Origin: Gemmataceae bacterium | GTDB taxonomy: Bacteria > Planctomycetota > Planctomycetia > Gemmatales > Gemmataceae | Reading direction: 5' to 3' | Assembly (NCBI GenBank): GCA_009692005.1 | Contig: SHZZ01000002.1 | Span: 124,001 to 188,000, forward strand | Length of the DNA stretch: 64,000 nucleotides | In this document: piece by piece, positions 38,194-47,711 of the stretch | Layout: each line of letters starts with the position of its first letter | Numbering within the stretch: position 1 is the stretch's first letter | The notes under the pieces: generated by a model | The model's database searches: none | What the model was told of the DNA's origin: nothing | Seen by the model: only the letters and a program-made list of their open reading frames with translations | Made by a program: the position numbers and the translations under genes

Positions 38194-39756
38194 ATGGGTT
38201 TTGATCAAATTCTAAGTTTTTTATTCGTGAGCGTAGGCGCCGGGGGATTCGGCTATTTGTTGTCGAAAACGCTCGACAAACGAAAGCTAGGCTCCGCCGT
38301 TGAAAACGCTGAATCCATTGCCCGCAAGTCTCGCGAGGACGCGGATGCCATCACCCGCGACGCTGAAATAAAGGGCAAAGCAGATAATATCAAACGCAAA
38401 GAAGCCTTATTGGCTGAAATGCAAAAGGAAAAGGAAAACCTTTGGGAACAATTAAAGCGCCTGGAAAAGAAGGAAGACCAGGTCGAGGAGCGGGCCCTGG
38501 ATCTGCAAAAACGCGAACGCCTGACTGACTCGCTGCAAAAAAAACTGCAAGGCCAAAAAAACGAAGCTGAACAAAGAACGCTAAAGCTCGACGAAGTTCT
38601 TCGCGACCAGGAAAAAAAATTGCTAACGATCACCTCGCTGACCCGCGAGGAGGCTGAAAGGAAGCTGTTTGATAATCTGGATCGGACGCTTTCCAAAAAA
38701 ACTAATGAGCGGTTTCGAAGGTTTGAAGATAATCTGAAGTCTTCCACTGAGGAGCTTTCCCGGAGGACTTTGATCATGGCAATTCAACGCTTCGCGGGCG
38801 GAATTGCCACAGAGTCCACGGTAAGCACCGTGGATATTCCCAATGACGATGTCAAAGGCAGGATCATAGGCCGGGAAGGGCGAAATATCCGTGCATTTGA
38901 AAAACTGACCGGTGTTGATGTCATTATTGATGACACGCCAGGCGTGGTTGTTGTCAGCGCTTTTGACCGTGTGCGGCGGGAAATTGCTCGACTGGCTTTG
39001 ATCAAGTTGATCGAGGACGGGCGGATCCACCCGGCCCGGATTGAGGAAATTGTACAAGCCACCGAAAAAGAAATGGAAAAGCAGATCCAGGAAGCAGGGA
39101 GAAAAGCTTGGGAAGAAGCCAATGTCGCTCCCTTGCATGATAAGTTGATTCAATTGCTTGGACGGCTGGAGTACCGGACAAGCTACAGTCAGAATGTATT
39201 GCGCCACAGTTTGGAAGTTGCCCACATCGCCGGCATGCTGGCCGAGGAGTTCGGCCTTGATGGCAAACTGGCCAGGCGCTGTGGCTTGCTTCACGACATC
39301 GGCAAGGCGGCGGATCACGAAATGGAAGGAGGCCACCCGAAAGTTGGGGCGGAATTGGCAAGGAAATACGGGGAAACCAGCCCGGATGTCTTGCATGCCA
39401 TTGAAGGCCATCATGAAACCCTGTCCATTGACCGTGCCTACACAGTCCTGGTGGCCACGGCGGATTCCATTAGCGCTTCCCGACCAGGCGCCCGTCGAGA
39501 CTCCTTGGAAAGATATGTCAAGCGCATGGGGGATTTGGAAGGAATCGCCACCGGGTTCCCAGGTGTGGAACAAGCTTTCGCCATTCAGGCGGGCCGCGAG
39601 TTGCGAGTGATTGTCAATTCCACACAAACATCTGACGAGGACGCAGCCCGGATTTGCCACGAAATCGTCAAGGGGATAGAAAACCAATTGAGTTACCCGG
39701 GAGAAATCAAAGTGACCCTCATTCGGGAAACGAGAATCATTGAAGTTGCCAAGTGA
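38194..39756 (+). CDS. rny: Ribonuclease Y
   Basis: 520 residues. N-terminal membrane helix (about 4-24), a long charged coiled coil (30-195), a KH domain with [11 protein letters not shown] (223-233), and an HD domain with HSLEVAH and catalytic LLHDIGK (His367, Asp368), plus GHHE. Endoribonuclease that starts mRNA decay, anchored in the membrane. ATG at 38194 preferred; the in-frame TTG at 38182 is less likely. It shares an operon with the ymdB-like gene, a pairing also seen in Firmicutes. Confidence 0.95.
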
Positions 39757-40615
39757 AAACCCCAAACCGGCTAGAGTGCTGGTATCTGGCGACATAGTTG
39801 GCCCAGTCGGCGTGGAATTGCTGATTCGCTTCCTGCCCCTTTTACGAGTTCACTTGCAATTGGACGCGGTTCTGGCCAATGCGGAAAACGCGCACAATGG
39901 CTCCGGACTTTCATCGGGTTTGTTCCGAAAACTCCGCAAGGCTGGCATCGACTTGTTTACCCTTGGGGACCATGTCTATAAGCGGGAGGACATTCTGGCC
40001 GACATGGAAAAAGAAGATTGCCTTTGTCGCCCGGCCAATTACCCCTCCAGCGCGCCGGGAAAACCTTATGCGATTTGCGCCACCAAGTCCCTGGGCCAAG
40101 TGGCAGCTATTTCTCTTCTGGGCCGGACCTTCATGAAGCCGGTTGACTGCCCTTTTGCTGCTATTGACCGATTGCTTCCCGAAATCCAAACAAAAGCCAA
40201 AATGATCTTTGTCGATATCCATGCTGAAGCCACCGCGGACAAATACCTGATGGCCCACTTTTTGAAAGGAAAAGTAACTGCGATCCTTGGCACCCATACG
40301 CATGTGCCAACCGCCGATGAAACGCTCCTCGAAGGCGGGACGGCTTTTCAGTGCGATTTGGGGATGACTGGACCGCATGATGGTATTTTGGGGAGGAACA
40401 CGGCCCCAGTTCTGGAAACTAACCGGACCTTCAGACCAAACCGGTTTACTGTAAGTGAGGGGGATTGTCGGTTGTCGGGCGCACTAATCGAGGTTGATCC
40501 AGCCAGCGGTAAAGCCCTTTCCATTAAGCGGGTACAGTGGACCGCAGCGGATCTGGAAAAAATGCTGGAAACCCAATTAGGCGAATCCCATCAAGCAGAT
40601 AGTCGGGCCTTGTGA
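39740..40615 (+). CDS. YmdB-family metallophosphoesterase (TIGR00282 type)
   Basis: 291 residues. Metal-site signatures: SGDIVG (Asp18), [10 protein letters not shown] (Asn48, Glu49), LGDHVY (Asp77-His78, where most have Gly-Asn-His), [11 protein letters not shown] (His161, Glu163) and [10 protein letters not shown] (His186, His188). B. subtilis YmdB hydrolyses 2',3'-cyclic nucleotides and modulates RNase Y-related behaviour. It overlaps rny by 17 bases if the TTG at 39740 is used; a GTG at 39776 is the alternative and neither has a good ribosome site. The 3' end overlaps the convergent FHA-protein gene by 25 bases. Confidence 0.88.
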
Positions 40616-43600
40616 GCGCCGGATTTGTTAAATGTTTCCCGGATGAATTCCAGGTACTCATCATCGAGGTTGGGCAAATTCTTGATCACTTCGGCCGTCT
40701 TTTCTTTCCAGTCAAGCAGGGTGATGTCAAGGGATTGTTTCACCGCTCCCTCCAGCCATAGCAAGTAATCCTTTGTTTTTTCGGGATGAATATTCCCAGC
40801 GAATTCGGTGGAGCCATTATCTTCCTGGATCCAACTCAGGGCCGCTCGGGCCAGGGATTGAATGTCAGTTTTCCTGGAATAAGCGGCGGTTGCATGTCCT
40901 GCAAGAACCCAGGTCGGGCAACCCGCGCCATTCCATTTCAACATGCCGCTGCTTTCCAGAGTTAAGGAACTGGGCGCCAAGGGACCGTAACTTAGACCCG
41001 TGGCATGAATGGCGTCCAATCCATGAATAGCTTGCCAAACAATTTGCATCCAGGCTGAGATATTCCTTCCAAGAAAACTCCAATCCTCTGGCTGACAACC
41101 ATCGGCAATTTCTGCCAATACGGAAGGTACGCCCTTGATATCCAGAACCTCCAGAGTTTGGACCACATTCTCGTTGCGGATAGTCAAAGCCGCTCGGAAT
41201 TGCTGACGGTACTCATCCGGGTGGCATGGATCTTCCATTTCCTGTTCAGATAATTGGCGGAACAACACTTCTTTTTGTAAAACGGGATCGAAAACGCGAT
41301 AACGCACTTCCCTGGGATTGGATTGCAAACGGTCGATCACCCGGAAGCGGTCAATCATCAAGCCATCCAAGTTGCCAGCCTCGATAAGGGCCAACTGGTA
41401 AAAAGTAAGAAACCCGCCGTTCAAAAGCAAATTGCGGAAGGATTTTCTTTGATTGCAAGAAGCCCGAAGGAGGGATTCCAGTGTGGCGGAATCGATCAGC
41501 CCCAATTTGAGGAGCTGCTGGCCTAGTTTTCTATCGCCCGGCTCGCCCGCTTCCATGCCCGGACCTTCCCGGGATTGCAGTGCATTGCTAGCCCGTTCGG
41601 GGTTGTACAAGCCAATATTCAAGGCCGCCTGAGTGGAAAGTTGCCTGATCTTTTTTCGGTACCACTCTTGCATTTCTTCCAAATGCAAGTGAACCGCTTC
41701 CTGCCCGGCTCGAATAGTATCTTGATCCTGGCGAAGAATTTCTTCCTTCTTGGCCAAAATCTCTTTTTGCTGGAGCATCTCTTTCTCGCGAAAAAGGAAT
41801 TGCGCGTTTTTCCTCTCCAGCGATTCTTCCCCCGAGCGCAGGTTAAGTTTGATTTCCCCGACCTTATGCTGCCATTCCAAAAGGTTTTGCTTGAACGATG
41901 CTACCGACAGGCGGTGATCTTCTCTTGCCTGTAAAACGCGTGCTTCCAATTCGCGGAATAATCTTTCCCCGTTGGACGCTTCCGTATGGAAGGATTCCAT
42001 TTCTTCCCTGGCGGAATGGGAATACTGATGAAATTCCTGCAAATGTTCGCGCAAAGTTTCCCTGGCCGCAAGCAAACGAGAAAGCGATTTTTCCACCAGG
42101 CTCTCGAGTTCTGGAATACGGTCATCCATGCCGCCAAGTTTTCTGGAAAGGTCCTCGGCTTGCTGAAAGGTTTTCTTTGTGTTGTCCGCGTTATGCGCTT
42201 TTTCCAGTTCCAACTGGCGTTTTTCCGAGTCCAATTTCTCCAGGGCGGCGAAAATCTCGTCCCTGATCTGGATGTTTCCCCTCTGCTCATCCAGGTGCCT
42301 GGCGTGCCGATTTTCTAACTCCTCATGCCGAGATTCGAGTGTTTTTTCTCGTGCTTCTAATTCTTCTTTCAGGGCAACCAGGCTGGCCAGAGCATTTTGA
42401 TGTTCCAATTCCATTTCCCGGGCGCGTTCCTCCACGGTGGCCAAATCAACCACCAACCGCTGTTCTTTTTCAGCCAACCCCTGGTTGGATGCTTCCATTT
42501 CCTCGAATCGCTTGCGCAGAGCTTCTTGCACAAAGGCCAGATTTTTACCCGCGTCTTCCACTTCCCGTTCTTTGTTCAAATGAACCATGGTCTGGTTTTC
42601 TTTTTCCAGAACTTGGTTTTTCCATTGTTCTTCTTTTTCCTTTAGTTCTCTTCCCTTGGACTCAAACTCCGAAAGCCTGATTTGCAGCGTTTGGCCGCAA
42701 TGCCGATGCTCTTCTCTGGAAGCCTCAAGGAGAGACTGTTCCTCGACTAGCTTGAGTTTCTCTGCTTCCAGCGTGGCCTTGGCGCTATCCAGGTTTTTAA
42801 TTTCAATAAACAGGTTTCCGGATTCCGCCGCTATTTCCTGCAGTCGTTGTTGGAACTCACTTTCCGCCTTGACCAGTTGGATATCCCGTTGGTCCAACTC
42901 TCCTTCCCGTTCGATCAGGGTCTTCCGGTTTTTTTCCAGGGCTTTCTTTAGCGCCCAAACCTCGGAGATCTGCGTTTCTAATGCCGCATCCTTTTGCGCG
43001 GCAAAGACAGACTTTTCTTGTAGCTCCGCCTGCAACTTTTGCGTGCATTCCTGGTCTAACTTCAGTTGTTGATGCAAAGACCCTACGCTGCTTGCTTGCA
43101 ACTCTAGTTCCCGGCTGGCTTTCTGCAAGTCCCCGGAACGAAGGTCAACATCCTTGGCCCGCTCCCGCAAGTGCTGAAACTTCCGGTCCAACATATCCTG
43201 GAACCGTGCCAGGCGCGCGAAATCGGAATCCCGCAAATCTTGAATATTGCCTAATTGGCCCTTTTCCTTCACCAGTTGCTGGATTTGCAACAATAAATCG
43301 TCTCGGGAATTCTCCAGCTCCGCTTTTTCCTTTTTGTTCTTTTCCCCCAGAGAAACAATTTCCTGTTCAATAAACCCTTTTTCCGAATGAAGGGCGCTTT
43401 CCCGGGCGGCAAGTTCCAATTCCCTCTGCCCAAGTGAAGATTCTTTTTCCTGGAGATTGGCCTCCAGGGTTTTTAAAAGGGCGTTTTTCTTTTGGGCTTT
43501 GTGGACAAGCCAGGAAAGGAACTTTTTCCCACCTTTGGTTTTTTCCTTGAGGGTGGGAGAAGAGGGCTCCATTATTTCGCTGGGAATCGAAAAGGAAAAC

Positions 43601-43887
43601 TCATGCTCACCCACTTGAACCTTGTCCCCCTGCTTGAGGAAGGCATCGGTTAAAGGTTCCTGATTCAAGGTAAGGCCGCATAAGGGAGAATAAGTCTTGA
43701 TGTGGAAACCTTGAGATGGGCTTTTGGTGATTTGAAAAATCAGGGGAGGTAATCCCGCGGCGGGCAAGCGAAGATCACATCCGGGAACCGTCCCAACAAC
43801 CACGGAGTCTCCAAGAGGAATCACTTTGGGGTGTGATCCATGGCTGGTCCATTGGACCTTGGGCCCGGATTGAAAGGCATTGGTCAT
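40591..43887 (-). CDS. Large FHA-like, coiled-coil, pseudokinase protein
   Basis: 1098 residues in three parts. 1-112: FHA-like beta domain (VVVGTVPGCDLRLP ... LKQGDKVQVGEHEFSF) lacking the phospho-Thr-binding Arg, Ser and His. About 130-770: near-continuous charged coiled coil (Glu, Gln, Lys, Leu). 784-842: small domain LGQQLLKLGLIDSATLESLL ... FLTFYQLALIEAG, like the one preceding many planctomycete Ser/Thr kinases. 844-1080: kinase fold with VLFRQL for VAIK (Lys to Arg), LSYGPLAPSSL for the HRD loop (no Asp), and no DFG. So a likely inactive scaffold. No membrane segment. Downstream of mutL after 138 bases; may share its transcript. Function unknown. Confidence 0.75.
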   Translation of the reverse strand: MTNAFQSGPKVQWTSHGSHPKVIPLGDSVVVGTVPGCDLRLPAAGLPPLIFQITKSPSQGFHIKTYSPLCGLTLNQEPLTDAFLKQGDKVQVGEHEFSFSIPSEIMEPSSPTLKEKTKGGKKFLSWLVHKAQKKNALLKTLEANLQEKESSLGQRELELAARESALHSEKGFIEQEIVSLGEKNKKEKAELENSRDDLLLQIQQLVKEKGQLGNIQDLRDSDFARLARFQDMLDRKFQHLRERAKDVDLRSGDLQKASRELELQASSVGSLHQQLKLDQECTQKLQAELQEKSVFAAQKDAALETQISEVWALKKALEKNRKTLIEREGELDQRDIQLVKAESEFQQRLQEIAAESGNLFIEIKNLDSAKATLEAEKLKLVEEQSLLEASREEHRHCGQTLQIRLSEFESKGRELKEKEEQWKNQVLEKENQTMVHLNKEREVEDAGKNLAFVQEALRKRFEEMEASNQGLAEKEQRLVVDLATVEERAREMELEHQNALASLVALKEELEAREKTLESRHEELENRHARHLDEQRGNIQIRDEIFAALEKLDSEKRQLELEKAHNADNTKKTFQQAEDLSRKLGGMDDRIPELESLVEKSLSRLLAARETLREHLQEFHQYSHSAREEMESFHTEASNGERLFRELEARVLQAREDHRLSVASFKQNLLEWQHKVGEIKLNLRSGEESLERKNAQFLFREKEMLQQKEILAKKEEILRQDQDTIRAGQEAVHLHLEEMQEWYRKKIRQLSTQAALNIGLYNPERASNALQSREGPGMEAGEPGDRKLGQQLLKLGLIDSATLESLLRASCNQRKSFRNLLLNGGFLTFYQLALIEAGNLDGLMIDRFRVIDRLQSNPREVRYRVFDPVLQKEVLFRQLSEQEMEDPCHPDEYRQQFRAALTIRNENVVQTLEVLDIKGVPSVLAEIADGCQPEDWSFLGRNISAWMQIVWQAIHGLDAIHATGLSYGPLAPSSLTLESSGMLKWNGAGCPTWVLAGHATAAYSRKTDIQSLARAALSWIQEDNGSTEFAGNIHPEKTKDYLLWLEGAVKQSLDITLLDWKEKTAEVIKNLPNLDDEYLEFIRETFNKSGAHKARLSA

Positions 43888-44025: not shown

Positions 44026-45915
44026 TCAGGTTCTCCCAAACTGCCGTTCTAAATCCGTTTTTGGGATTAATAACGAAGTTGGTCTACCGTGAGGACAATG
44101 GTAATTTGACCTGGACAAATGGCGCATTTGGGCAAGCATCGCCATTTCCGTTCCTGTGAGTTTATCACCAGCCCGCACGGCGGAATGGCATGCAGTCAGG
44201 CTCATGACCTGGTGCAGTAGGGTTTCCCGGGATGGCATTGCACCCTTGGAATAAAGGTGGTCCACAATAGCTAAAAACAGATCTCCTGGAGATTTATTTC
44301 CCAGGATGGCGGGGATGCCATCCAACAATAGGGCCTTGGCGCCAGTTCCCCGGATTTCGAATCCTAATTCAGCGAAACTATCGAGGTTTTCAATTACTTG
44401 ACTCATTACTGAAGCCGGCAGCTCAATTGTTTCAGGAATTAACAGTTTTTGCTTTTGTACCTTCCCTTCCTGTAAACGGGATTTCAGTTGTTCATACAGC
44501 ACCCGCTCGTGCAGGGCATGCTGGTCGATGACGAGTACCCCCTCCGCTGTCTCAAGAAGGATGTAAGAGTCAAAAAATTGAATCGCCTTTAGGGGGGAAT
44601 CCCAGGATTGCTGAATCGGGGAAATAGCGCTTTCGGCAGAGCCAACTTCCGCGCCCTGTGATTGTCCCAAATTCGATATTGCAGATTGCCATGAAGGCAA
44701 AGCCGTTGAAGTTGATTCCTGTCTGAATGGAAGCCTCGGCAATGGCAGTTCATTTTGCGGGCCTGGCCCAGATTGCAGGCTGAACGGTTGCCTTTCTTGA
44801 TTAGTTCCAGGGGTTGAGAATGGGCCTGGGAAACTCGCTGGTAATTGGCCCTCTGCTGGCGGGCTTTTATCCGGGAAGGAATACCGGGAGGCGGGATTCA
44901 ATAGAGCCAGGGATTTTTTTACCGCGTTATGAACCAAATGGTGAACCATGCCAGCTTCGCGAAACCTCACCTCGGATTTGGCAGGATGGACATTGACATC
45001 CACTTTTTCTGGGGCCATGTCCAAAAATAAAAATGCGACGGGAAAGCGGCCGGTCATCAGGTGGCCCTTAAAACCTTCTTGCAGCGCGTGGGCCACCGAT
45101 TTATCACGAAACCAACGGCCATTCAGGAAAAAATATTGTGATCGCGAAGACCCCTGGTCTAAATTGGGCGAGCCGATAAACCCTGTCAGCCTGTAACCAG
45201 AAACGGTTTCCTCGACAGGGAGCAACTCGTCAGCAAAGTCCTTTCCAAACAAAAGGGCAGCCTTTTCCACCAGCCCTGTTCCCCCAGGGATTTGAAAAAC
45301 CACTTTTTCATTATTTCGATAAACCCAATGCAAGTCGGAACTGGCATGGGTTCCATGGGCTCTGGAGAGGATAAGCCGGTAAAGTATCTCGCTGATTTGA
45401 GCTGTGTCCGCCGCCGGGGATTTCAAAAACTTTCTTCGAACTGGCGAGTTAAAAAACAAGTGGCGGACCTCAACCCGGGTGCCAGGAGAGCCGTTCCAGG
45501 GAGCCGGTGCGGAAACCCTTTCTCCATCAGATGCAATTTGCCCCCCTTGGATCAAGTCATGCGGGCACGATTGAATGACCACCTTGGCCACGCTACCTAT
45601 GGAGGCCAGGGCCTCGCCGCGGAATCCCAGGGTATCCACCAGCGCCAGGTCTTCCGCAGAATGTAACTTGCTGGTCGCATGGCTGGCCATGGCCAAAGGC
45701 AGATCTTCAGGGTAAATGCCGTGCCCATTGTCCGTTACACGGATCAGATCCTGCCCACCTTGCTGGATTTCGACTTCAATCCTGCTGGCGCCGGCATCGA
45801 TCGAGTTTTCCACCAGTTCCTTGACCACACTTGCGGTTCTTTCAATGATCTCGCCCGCCGCGATTTGGTTGACGACATTCTGTGGCAACTGGCGGATTCT
45901 GGAAGTGGCCTGCAT
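44026..45915 (-). CDS. mutL: DNA mismatch repair protein MutL, endonuclease type
   Basis: 629 residues. N-terminal GHKL ATPase: KELVENSIDAG (Glu33, Asn37), TDNGHGI (62-67), TLGFRGEALASIG. Pro/Ser/Gln-rich linker about 345-440. C-terminal dimer domain has DQHALHERVLYE, i.e. DQHA-x2-E-x4-E (464-475), plus ACHSAVRAGD and CPHGRPTSL, the complete metal-site set of nicking MutL as in bacteria without MutH. Licenses strand-specific repair with MutS. Sits between the NtrC-type gene (upstream, 26 bases) and the FHA protein gene. Confidence 0.95.
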   Translation of the reverse strand: MQATSRIRQLPQNVVNQIAAGEIIERTASVVKELVENSIDAGASRIEVEIQQGGQDLIRVTDNGHGIYPEDLPLAMASHATSKLHSAEDLALVDTLGFRGEALASIGSVAKVVIQSCPHDLIQGGQIASDGERVSAPAPWNGSPGTRVEVRHLFFNSPVRRKFLKSPAADTAQISEILYRLILSRAHGTHASSDLHWVYRNNEKVVFQIPGGTGLVEKAALLFGKDFADELLPVEETVSGYRLTGFIGSPNLDQGSSRSQYFFLNGRWFRDKSVAHALQEGFKGHLMTGRFPVAFLFLDMAPEKVDVNVHPAKSEVRFREAGMVHHLVHNAVKKSLALLNPASRYSFPDKSPPAEGQLPASFPGPFSTPGTNQERQPFSLQSGPGPQNELPLPRLPFRQESTSTALPSWQSAISNLGQSQGAEVGSAESAISPIQQSWDSPLKAIQFFDSYILLETAEGVLVIDQHALHERVLYEQLKSRLQEGKVQKQKLLIPETIELPASVMSQVIENLDSFAELGFEIRGTGAKALLLDGIPAILGNKSPGDLFLAIVDHLYSKGAMPSRETLLHQVMSLTACHSAVRAGDKLTGTEMAMLAQMRHLSRSNYHCPHGRPTSLLIPKTDLERQFGRT

Positions 45916-45941: not shown

Positions 45942-47510
45942 TTAGGCCCCATTGAATTCCTGGGTATCCAACCCCTCGGGCTCCAACCCTTCTGCTGATG
46001 AACCGGGCAGCTTTTTCAACTTTTTCTTCAGGCTGTCAGCAGACATTTGCAAGGATTCTGCCGCCAGGGAAATGTCGTTGTTGTTTTGCTCCAGAGCCTT
46101 TTTGATCCGATCTTGCATTTTCCAATCCTGGATAACTCGATAAAGAGTCCGTTCACCAATCCCCAGCATTTTGGCGGCCTCTTCCCGGTTTCCCTTGGTC
46201 AGGACCAAGGCCTGTTCGATGAAGTGCCTTTCGACTTCCATTAACGGACGGCCCAGCAGGTTATCCCCTGGTTTGGTCGAGTCCTTGAGTTGGAACCCGT
46301 CGGCGAGTTCTCCCTCCTGAAGGTCGTCCTGGTTTAAAATTCCATCCTGGTCCAAGACCACCATGCTTTCCACGAGGTTGCGCAATTCGCGGACATTGCC
46401 TGGCCAGTCATAAGCAACCATGGACCTGCGAACTGGCTCGCAAATGGCAGTCACTTTTTTCCCATGGAGTTCGTTGAACTCTTTCAGGAAACTGGCGCAC
46501 AAAAGAGGGATGTCTTCTTTTCGCTCTCGAAGCGGAGGGATGCGGATCCTTAACTTATTCAAACGGAAGTACAAATCATGGCGAAAAGTGCCTGCCGTGA
46601 CCGCCGACTCCAGATCCCGGTGGGTTGCCGACACCACCCGGACATTGACTTTAATTGGTTCATTGCTGCCGATTCGCACCACCTCGCCATTTTCCAGCAC
46701 GCGCAAAAGCTTGGCCTGCAACGGCAAAGGCATATCCCCCACTTCATCCAAGAATAAAGTTCCCCCATTGGCGTATTCAAAACGGCCTTTGCGGAGTTTA
46801 TCCCCACCGGTAAACGCTCCGGCATCGTGGCCAAACAATTCATCATCGAGAAGGTTTTCATTCAAGGCGGTACAGTTCATGGCTACAAAAGGTTTATTTT
46901 TTCGATTGCTATTGTTGTGAATCGCCTTGGCCACCAATTCCTTGCCTGTGCCTGTTTCTCCCTGAATCAAAACCGTGGCGCTGGTCGAGGCAATGCTTTT
47001 CAACCTGGAAACCAGTTCATGCATCTTGGGGCTGTTTCCCAGGACCCCTTCAAAACCAAATTTCTCGTTGAGCTGGCTTTTCAAATCCCGGTTTAACCGG
47101 GCCAACTTAAGCCTTTCCGAGGAGCGAGCCACGATGGCCCGCAACTCAGAAATGTCAACCGGCTTGGTCAAGTAATTTGCCGCCCCTTGCTTGATGGCCT
47201 CGACAGCGGTTTTCACATCGGCGTGCCCGGTGATAACGACGACTTCGGTTTCCGGCGACACCTCTCGAGCTTTCCTTAGAATTGCCAGTCCATCCAGGTC
47301 CGCCATCCGCAAATCAGTCAAAACCACATCAAAGTCTTCATTTTCAATCCGCCGGGCCCCTTCCTTCCCGCTATTGGCAGTATGGCATTCAAAACCGACC
47401 CTTTCCAAGCTCTCGCTCAGCGCTTCCGAATGCGACTTTTCATCATCAATAATCAAAACCTTAATTCCCTCTCCGGGCCTGGGATCTGGTTGTTCATCTT
47501 TCTGCTTCAT
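45942..47510 (-). CDS. NtrC-family sigma-54-dependent response regulator
   Basis: 522 residues from the ATG at 47510 (start uncertain; the frame opens to 47591). Receiver domain with acidic pair at 22-23, phosphoacceptor Asp66 (VLTDLRMADLDG) and Lys116 (YLTKPVD); AAA+ domain with Walker A GETGTGKE (184-191), sigma-54 loop GAFTGG (231-236, usually GAFTGA), and Walker B GGTLFLDEVGDM; Fis-type helix-turn-helix GNREEAAKMLGIGERTLYRVI, followed by a second HTH-like segment near the end (DISLAAESLQMSADSLKKKL). Activates sigma-54 promoters when phosphorylated. Histidine kinase not in the window. Divergent from the HD-type protein. Confidence 0.93.
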   Translation of the reverse strand: MKQKDEQPDPRPGEGIKVLIIDDEKSHSEALSESLERVGFECHTANSGKEGARRIENEDFDVVLTDLRMADLDGLAILRKAREVSPETEVVVITGHADVKTAVEAIKQGAANYLTKPVDISELRAIVARSSERLKLARLNRDLKSQLNEKFGFEGVLGNSPKMHELVSRLKSIASTSATVLIQGETGTGKELVAKAIHNNSNRKNKPFVAMNCTALNENLLDDELFGHDAGAFTGGDKLRKGRFEYANGGTLFLDEVGDMPLPLQAKLLRVLENGEVVRIGSNEPIKVNVRVVSATHRDLESAVTAGTFRHDLYFRLNKLRIRIPPLRERKEDIPLLCASFLKEFNELHGKKVTAICEPVRRSMVAYDWPGNVRELRNLVESMVVLDQDGILNQDDLQEGELADGFQLKDSTKPGDNLLGRPLMEVERHFIEQALVLTKGNREEAAKMLGIGERTLYRVIQDWKMQDRIKKALEQNNNDISLAAESLQMSADSLKKKLKKLPGSSAEGLEPEGLDTQEFNGA

Positions 47511-47711
47511 GGGAAAACATTCCGCTTTTACCGAATTATGGGAACGAGAGGCCATTCTATTCTTAATGGAAAACCTTGGCATGGTCAGCAAAAAATGCCC
47601 TTAAGCTCGTTAAAGTAAGCAAGATCGGAAAACCGATAAAAGATGGGGAAACCTTGTTTTTTTTGCCCCCATTGCGCAGGCAGGGGAAATTTGTCCAGCG
47701 GACTCGAATTT

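Follow-up and report, generated by a model that had tools for sequence, protein, structure and literature searches.

A conserved Gemmatales protein joining a degenerate FHA domain to a pseudokinase: a candidate adaptor

A 64,000-nucleotide stretch of a Gemmataceae bacterium genome (contig SHZZ01000002.1, positions 124,001 to 188,000; the window) carries a gene for a protein of 1098 residues, in which an FHA-like domain at the N-terminus and a kinase-like domain at the C-terminus have both lost their functional residues. Across nearly all of one group of complex planctomycetes the same losses are kept under selection, with one gene per genome, so the protein probably has a structural or docking role and is not a broken enzyme. 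Comparison of the family's sequences strongly supports its being non-catalytic. We consider it reasonably likely that the protein is a conserved, contact-based adaptor of Gemmatales and one sister lineage, blind to both phosphorylation and ATP.

An earlier reading, made from the DNA letters without database searches (the sequence-only reading), had placed this protein at 40591-43887, and the open reading frame is exact, lying on the minus strand with an ATG start. The gene and its parts are as follows (window coordinates).

40591..43887, minus strand: whole gene, ATG start, 1098 residues; pseudo-FHA, long helical middle, helical module, pseudokinase and C-terminal tail
43576..43866, minus strand: FHA-like head, residues 8-104; predicted model, VIA-align Z 14-15, FhaA profile match, Pfam matches of relatives
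43789..43794, minus strand: G32-T33 at the FHA Gly-Arg position; Arg in 0/45 members
43738..43752, minus strand: L46-P47-P48-L49-I50 at the V-S-R-x-H position; Ser replaced by Pro in 42/45 members
41593..43554, minus strand: helical middle, residues 112-765, probably coiled coil, from composition and proline-free stretches
41353..41532, minus strand: helical LTxYQ module, residues 786-845, common to active-looking planctomycete kinases
40672..41352, minus strand: pseudokinase domain, residues 846-1072; model pLDDT 89, PknA Z 19.4, StkP profile 1.9e-12
41257..41259, minus strand: R877 at the beta-3 Lys position; Arg in 55/55 members
40981..40989, minus strand: Y967-G968-P969 at the HRD position; Gly in 55/55, Asp in 0/55 members
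40921..40929, minus strand: G987-A988-G989 at the DFG position; first position Gly in 49/55, Asp in 2/55
40594..40605, minus strand: C-terminal tail R-L-S-A-COOH, residues 1095-1098; family pattern [RK]-x-[STA]-[AG], 52/54 members versus 6/280 other proteins

Neither Pfam nor NCBIfam holds a family for this protein; its FHA and kinase domains both score below the Pfam cut-off, and no further Pfam domain was found in it. Matches of its relatives to SMC, helix-rich and similar NCBIfam models lie far below cut-off and are read as coiled-coil cross-matches. The protein has no transmembrane segment, the maximum 19-residue Kyte-Doolittle mean being 1.2.

The pseudokinase domain

An alignment-based AlphaFold2 model of residues 785-1098 (predicted local distance difference test, pLDDT, 89; predicted template modelling score, pTM, 0.86) recovered the kinase fold that the sequence-only reading had suspected, with a helical module in front of it. 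In VIA-align the model matched PknA with Z 19.4 (root-mean-square deviation 3.3 over 221 residues), PknB with Z 18.7 and others with Z 18-19, and the family profile matched StkP at E 1.9e-12. Both the two-lobed fold and sequence homology thus assign the domain to the protein-kinase-like (Hanks) superfamily.

The residues of a catalytically competent Ser/Thr kinase, i.e. the beta-3 Lys, the HRD Asp and the DFG Asp, are replaced by R877, P969 and G987, respectively. The sequence-only reading had reported Arg for the beta-3 Lys, YGP for HRD and no DFG, and no catalytic residue was recovered by better alignment; the larger alignments made the loss firmer. The beta-3 position is Arg in all 55 members and Lys in none. 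At HRD the family mostly has H-G-R, H-G-H or H-G-N, with Gly for the Arg throughout and the Asp in no member. The picture is softened only at DFG, where the Asp is missing in 53 of 55; the two relatives that have it (L088 and L091) lack both the Lys and the HRD Asp. The DFG position leads into a family motif, G-E-P-x-W, which reads G-C-P-T-W in the window protein. The Gly-loop and the alpha-C Glu are gone, and the activation segment is deleted in the Gemmatales members. Residues that hold the fold together are kept (HRD-His and DFG-Gly in 53/55 each, alpha-F Asp in at least 90%). E860, a Glu where the Gly-loop used to be, is invariant (55/55).

The LTxYQ helical module in front of the kinase fold occurs also in active-looking kinases of the same class, e.g. 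L037 and L038, in which it directly precedes the kinase fold and which share about 24-26% identity with residues 784-998. Unlike the window protein, these kinases keep VALK, HRD and the metal-binding Asp, and they have neither the FHA-coil front nor the [RK]-x-[STA]-[AG] tail. The shared module indicates that the protein derives from a planctomycete Ser/Thr kinase, and the family-wide fixation of the catalytic losses that it is one no longer. The earlier suggestion of an origin from a signalling enzyme is therefore well supported, as is the present non-kinase state.

Two further kinase-like proteins with altered motifs were noticed: L006 (G000:C84:173450-174043; H-G-N for HRD, N-F-R for DFG) and L039 (G023:C356:68173-68700; H-R-N for HRD, D-L-T for DFG). 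They possibly represent separate Gemmataceae pseudokinase families.

The FHA-like head

Residues 1-120, likewise modelled from an alignment with AlphaFold2 (pLDDT 84), gave the expected FHA fold at the N-terminus. Foldseek and VIA-align matched it to FHA domains, with Ki67 at Z 15.0 and FhaA at Z 14.7, and the family profile matched the FHA domain of FhaA at E 1.4e-7. Membership of the FHA domain family (PF00498) is thus supported by fold and homology. The PF00498 model itself matches 29 of 45 heads at E up to 1, passing its cut-off in L054 and reaching only E 0.27 in the window protein. More heads (44/45, at E up to 1) are matched by PF16697, the cytoplasmic domain of the type III secretion protein Yop-YscD (YscD_cpl). 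That domain shares the FHA fold; however, the score of the window protein is under the cut-off and no type III secretion gene was found among the ten neighbours scanned, so the match is to the fold and not to the system.

The residues with which FHA domains read phosphothreonine (Gly-Arg, Ser, His and Asn-Gly-Thr) are lost. Arg follows the Gly in none of the 45 heads, Ser is absent from all of them, with Pro instead in 42, and the Gemmatales heads have a hydrophobic residue where the His would be, which bears out the absence of Arg, Ser and His reported by the sequence-only reading. The S/T-N-G-T loop is missing in the window protein; Asn75, close by, is retained.

Distribution, phylogeny and selection

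Long homologs are present in nearly all genomes of the same family and in several of the second Gemmatales family (40 related genomes), the closest having 36% identity over the whole length. Relatives on named contigs belong to Gemmataceae/Gemmatales and include Zavarzinella formosa, Gemmata sp. IIL30 and Limnoglobus roseus, which bears out the planctomycete origin assumed by the sequence-only reading. Scanning the genome contigs with the single protein gave no match; in the search for relatives an alignment of 27 rows proved too diverse, and one of 11 rows worked. By a profile of 55 C-terminal domains, the gene is present as exactly one copy in 81 of the 95 Gemmataceae genomes; among the good ones the figure is 60 of 66.

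At E 1e-25 the matches among 297 sampled genomes of the class fell only in Gemmataceae and in five of seven genomes of the second Gemmatales family. Restriction to Gemmatales, which this strict threshold would imply, was ruled out by a less strict search with an FHA-head profile, which found full-length sister proteins of 1216-1308 residues in all three genomes of a family outside the order (f5). Two more long proteins (in G123 and G232) lay near the score gap in the search for these homologs.

In the f5 proteins the kinase motifs are replaced in the same way, with the beta-3 Arg, no HRD Asp and G-x-G/S-E-P-x-W, and one of these proteins (L131) matches PknB_PASTA_kin at 1.5e-13, under the cut-off of that model. 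In an alignment of six sequences including f5, the beta-3 Arg, the Gly at DFG-Asp, the following P-x-W and the R-x-x-A tail are all invariant. The tree places the homologs of the Gemmatales family and f5 in one group (support 100/99), apart from eight other kinase-domain proteins of the same genomes, most of which have intact motifs (at least L006 is degenerate). The f5 proteins retain the His of the FHA domain; their activation segment is also kept and contains a P-E motif. This single comparison suggests that the kinase died first and that the FHA pocket eroded further later.

The ratio of non-synonymous to synonymous substitution rates (dN/dS), calculated for nine close pairs, was 0.04-0.29 in the head, 0.08-0.30 in the coil and 0.06-0.16 in the kinase part. 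By this measure the dead domains are maintained by purifying selection. The architecture cannot be put down to chance, as dozens of homologs under such selection show the two folds and the two sets of losses again.

The helical middle and the reduced proteins

Residues 112-591 and 593-762 contain no proline, so that there is only one up to residue 762, and E, K, R and Q make up about 40%. Such a composition fits about 650 helical residues. The sequence-only reading had described about 640 residues of coiled coil; the proline-free, charged, helix-like character stands, and the coiled coil itself is only probable.

In the genera g23 and g52 a shorter proline-rich linker takes the place of the coil. 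The proteins of genus g15 (L136:3051-5102 and L137:2839-4563) are reduced to 574-683 residues, with the coil again replaced by a shorter proline-rich linker and with no kinase N-lobe; the FHA head and an R-I-S-A tail are kept. That they are orthologs is supported by a convergent ymdB gene, which stands beside the g15 gene as it does beside the gene in the window. Natural variation thus spares the head, part of the C-lobe and the tail, and the reduction series points to the head and the tail end, rather than to the coil or the ATP pocket, as the pieces that matter.

The C-terminal tail

The last two residues are small ones (SA, TA, AA, AG or TG) in each of the 54 intact homologs, compared with 18 of 280 other proteins of at least 250 residues from the same loci. 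The longer pattern [RK]-x-[STA]-[AG] is found in 52 of the 54 and in 6 of the 280 (2%), and it persists in the f5 sister proteins and in the reduced g15 proteins. These counts come from related sequences and are not independent trials; most other positions differ, however (33-40% identity to the window protein). In 40 of the 54 tails a Ser or Thr precedes the terminal Ala, nearly always two residues past the basic residue. In the A-G endings of eleven tails and the A-A endings of two, that position holds neither Ser nor Thr, and the f5 tails read K-A-A, M-A-A and S-A-A.

As a side observation, the transfer-messenger RNA (tmRNA) of the source genome (L159:1501-1892) encodes a tag read as AEPQFSMAV, with an unusual ending other than Ala-Ala.

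A companion FHA-coil protein

The source genome encodes a second, 727-residue protein (L135:860-3043, minus strand, identical with G000:C96:9862-12045), which resembles the window protein in its FHA head, the start of the coil and the small-small C-terminus and differs in having no kinase domain. It is homologous to residues 8-176 of the pseudokinase protein, i.e. the head and the start of the coil (27% over 182 residues, E 1e-10). Companions were detected in 78 of 95 Gemmataceae genomes at E 1e-20, some matches being partial or FHA-only. In 9/9 aligned sequences the C-terminus is an invariant -AA. Some companions (L138, L141, L149 and L150) have a near-canonical FHA domain; L135 has no FHA Arg.

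A joint loss of coil and companion in g15 looked suggestive. It was set aside, as the companion evolves fast and is undetected also in some genomes with coiled homologs (G001 and G010).

Comparison with known systems

The closest parallel is offered by the type VII secretion proteins YukC/EssB and YukB/EssC of Firmicutes, in which a pseudokinase without catalytic motifs or ATP binding occurs together with FHA domains without phosphothreonine-reading residues (PMC9600267, PMC4925161). YukC co-purifies with the FHA region of YukB, a contact judged to be phosphorylation-independent (PMC9600267), and the FHA domains of EssC are degenerate (PMC4925161). On the other hand, these are two membrane proteins of a secretion machine, whereas here the pseudokinase and the FHA domain sit in a single planctomycete protein, joined by a helical spacer and with no predicted membrane segment. 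Nor does the window protein belong to the EssB/EssC group: besides the missing transmembrane segment, no type VII secretion component was found among the ten window proteins scanned.

GLW pseudokinases are defined by GLW in place of HRD, a bulky Leu/Trp for the beta-3 Lys and a C-terminal membrane helix (PMC12599244). The present family differs on every count, having H-G-R (Y-G-P in the window protein), the beta-3 Arg and no membrane segment. The CP1, DYD, DLHK, ActPs1 and ActPs2 pseudokinases are told apart by patterns of constraint and by the domains that accompany them, a COG3899 ATPase in the case of CP1; no extra Pfam domain turned up in the window protein.

MviN/MurJ of Mycobacterium (ActPs3) likewise lacks all three motifs of an active kinase and has a shortened activation loop, an FHA partner and a C-terminal tail that matters: PknB phosphorylates the tail, and FhaA reads it (PMC12599244). 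ActPs3 is marked by its own constraint pattern and by a deletion in the activation loop; the Gemmatales members of the window family, too, lack the activation segment, which by itself does not assign them to ActPs3. In contrast, MviN/MurJ spans the membrane and works in cell-wall synthesis, and the FHA domain of its partner reads phosphorylation; in the window protein the FHA domain is fused to the pseudokinase and its reading residues are gone.

Bacterial pseudokinases are little studied. A review of seven bacterial pseudokinase families makes no mention of planctomycetes, coiled coils or this architecture (PMC12599244). A census of planctomycete kinases scored them by the Pkinase domain and the Lys-Asp-Asp sites (PMC11032199), a test that the window protein would fail. 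We found no description of the family in the open literature searched; subscription papers and preprints lay outside that search, so an earlier description is possible. Pseudokinases and degenerate FHA domains are each known; it is their combination, the order-wide conservation and the conserved tail that appear new. A Gemmataceae genome encodes about a hundred Ser/Thr kinases, and the internal membranes of these bacteria are unusual (PMC11032199, PMC8567305). The protein described here, encoded by one gene per genome, offers a testable case of signalling domains becoming architecture: its writer of Ser/Thr phosphorylation and its reader have both turned into fixed parts.

Proposed function and alternatives

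We infer an adaptor role, and partners for it, from the features described above. Such an adaptor would act through protein-protein contacts alone and would need neither ATP nor phosphorylated Thr. Its head and its pseudokinase would bind one fixed partner each; the head of one molecule might have the pseudokinase of the next as its partner, on the model of YukC/EssB with YukB/EssC. The fusion of an FHA domain and a pseudokinase in one protein invites contacts of that kind, either head-to-tail or in a closed loop. In the proteins that have it, the helical spacer might dimerise and set the distance between head and pseudokinase, and the [RK]-x-[STA]-[AG] tail might be a peptide that docks on a partner recognising the free C-terminus.

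Several points weigh against this proposal. The neighbourhoods of the gene vary, so that genome context yields no partner. The coil is not universal, being missing in g15, g23 and g52, and a rigid-rod scaffold is therefore no general description; the structural scaffold put forward by the sequence-only reading is plausible and unproven, and its coil is weakened as an essential part. Head-to-tail contact between FHA domain and pseudokinase within the family is an analogy. Finally, some pseudokinases bind nucleotide through other residues, so the sequence leaves some room for ATP binding.

As in MviN/MurJ, the protein might instead be a regulatory substrate, its R-x-S/T-A tail being phosphorylated by an active Ser/Thr kinase and read by an intact FHA protein, e.g. 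the companion. The 40 tails with a Ser/Thr before the terminal Ala, nearly always at the same distance from a basic residue, would suit such a role, as would the occurrence of companions, some near-canonical, in many of these genomes. However, the eleven A-G and two A-A tails have no Ser/Thr at the site, and the f5 endings, K-A-A, M-A-A and S-A-A, also speak against it. The A-G tails in particular disfavour phosphorylation as a general principle. FHA domains prefer phosphothreonine, whereas most tails carry Ser, and the companion in the source genome lacks the FHA Arg itself. We regard this alternative as unlikely, though it is the strongest of those considered.

Slightly less probable still is that the tail is a degradation signal, an ssrA-like C-degron recognised by ClpXP or a similar protease, which would make the protein a structural factor controlled by turnover. 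The fixed small-small C-termini and the invariant -AA of the companions would agree with this. Against it, the tmRNA tag of the source genome does not end in AA, and a basic residue at position -4 and AG endings are unlike the usual LAA class.

An extension of the adaptor proposal, to which we give about as little credence as to the degron, links the two Gemmatales FHA-coil proteins, with and without pseudokinase, in a structural system specific to the lineage. Dead heads would bind the dead kinase tails of adjacent molecules head-to-tail and so build, without phosphorylation, a polymer or tether; a dedicated receptor would anchor its free C-termini of small residues. If true, it could organise membranes or the nucleoid in bacteria with strongly invaginated membranes.

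It is very improbable that the domain is an active atypical enzyme, which would hold nucleotide through the invariant Arg877 and its neighbours and transfer another group, as SelO or SidJ do. The invariance of the beta-3 Arg and E860 (55/55) could reflect catalysis or equally a salt bridge filling the pocket; no Asp, Asn or other metal ligand is invariant at the HRD and DFG positions, the Gemmatales members have lost the activation segment, and g15 has no N-lobe, so that pocket chemistry is not needed there. A decaying pseudogene, or a kinase recently inactivated in the source genome only, might be read from the progressive reduction in the g15 lineage, but it is already refuted by conservation, with losses common to two families and a sister lineage, dN/dS well under 1 everywhere and long frames free of internal stops in dozens of genomes.

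Genomic neighbourhood

The contact-based adaptor proposed above is encoded next to the following genes.

44026..45915, minus strand: mutL, upstream neighbour; adjacency only in g1, g20, g23 and g52
45942..47591, minus strand: NtrC-type sigma-54 activator; synteny limited as for mutL (g1, g20, g23, g52)
39740..40615, plus strand: ymdB-like phosphodiesterase gene, convergent, overlapping the 3' end of the pseudokinase gene by 25 bases

The mutL and NtrC-type neighbours pointed out by the sequence-only reading are real, and the order ntrC-mutL-pseudokinase gene is shared by the source genome with g20, g23 and g52. The adjacency does not extend to the other neighbourhoods inspected, and no recurrent partner gene was found across 57 loci. 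As it is limited to four genera, these neighbours do not point to a role in mismatch repair or in NtrC signalling. The ymdB gene is convergent with the pseudokinase gene also in g15, g23 and L076.

Scans for promoters and terminators gave signals no higher than shuffle level, and Rfam had no match within the 64-kb window. In six loci (L071, L088, L092, L093, L114 and L115) a gene upstream of the pseudokinase gene, on the opposite strand, encodes a protein of about 1090-1220 residues; these proteins form a single homology cluster.

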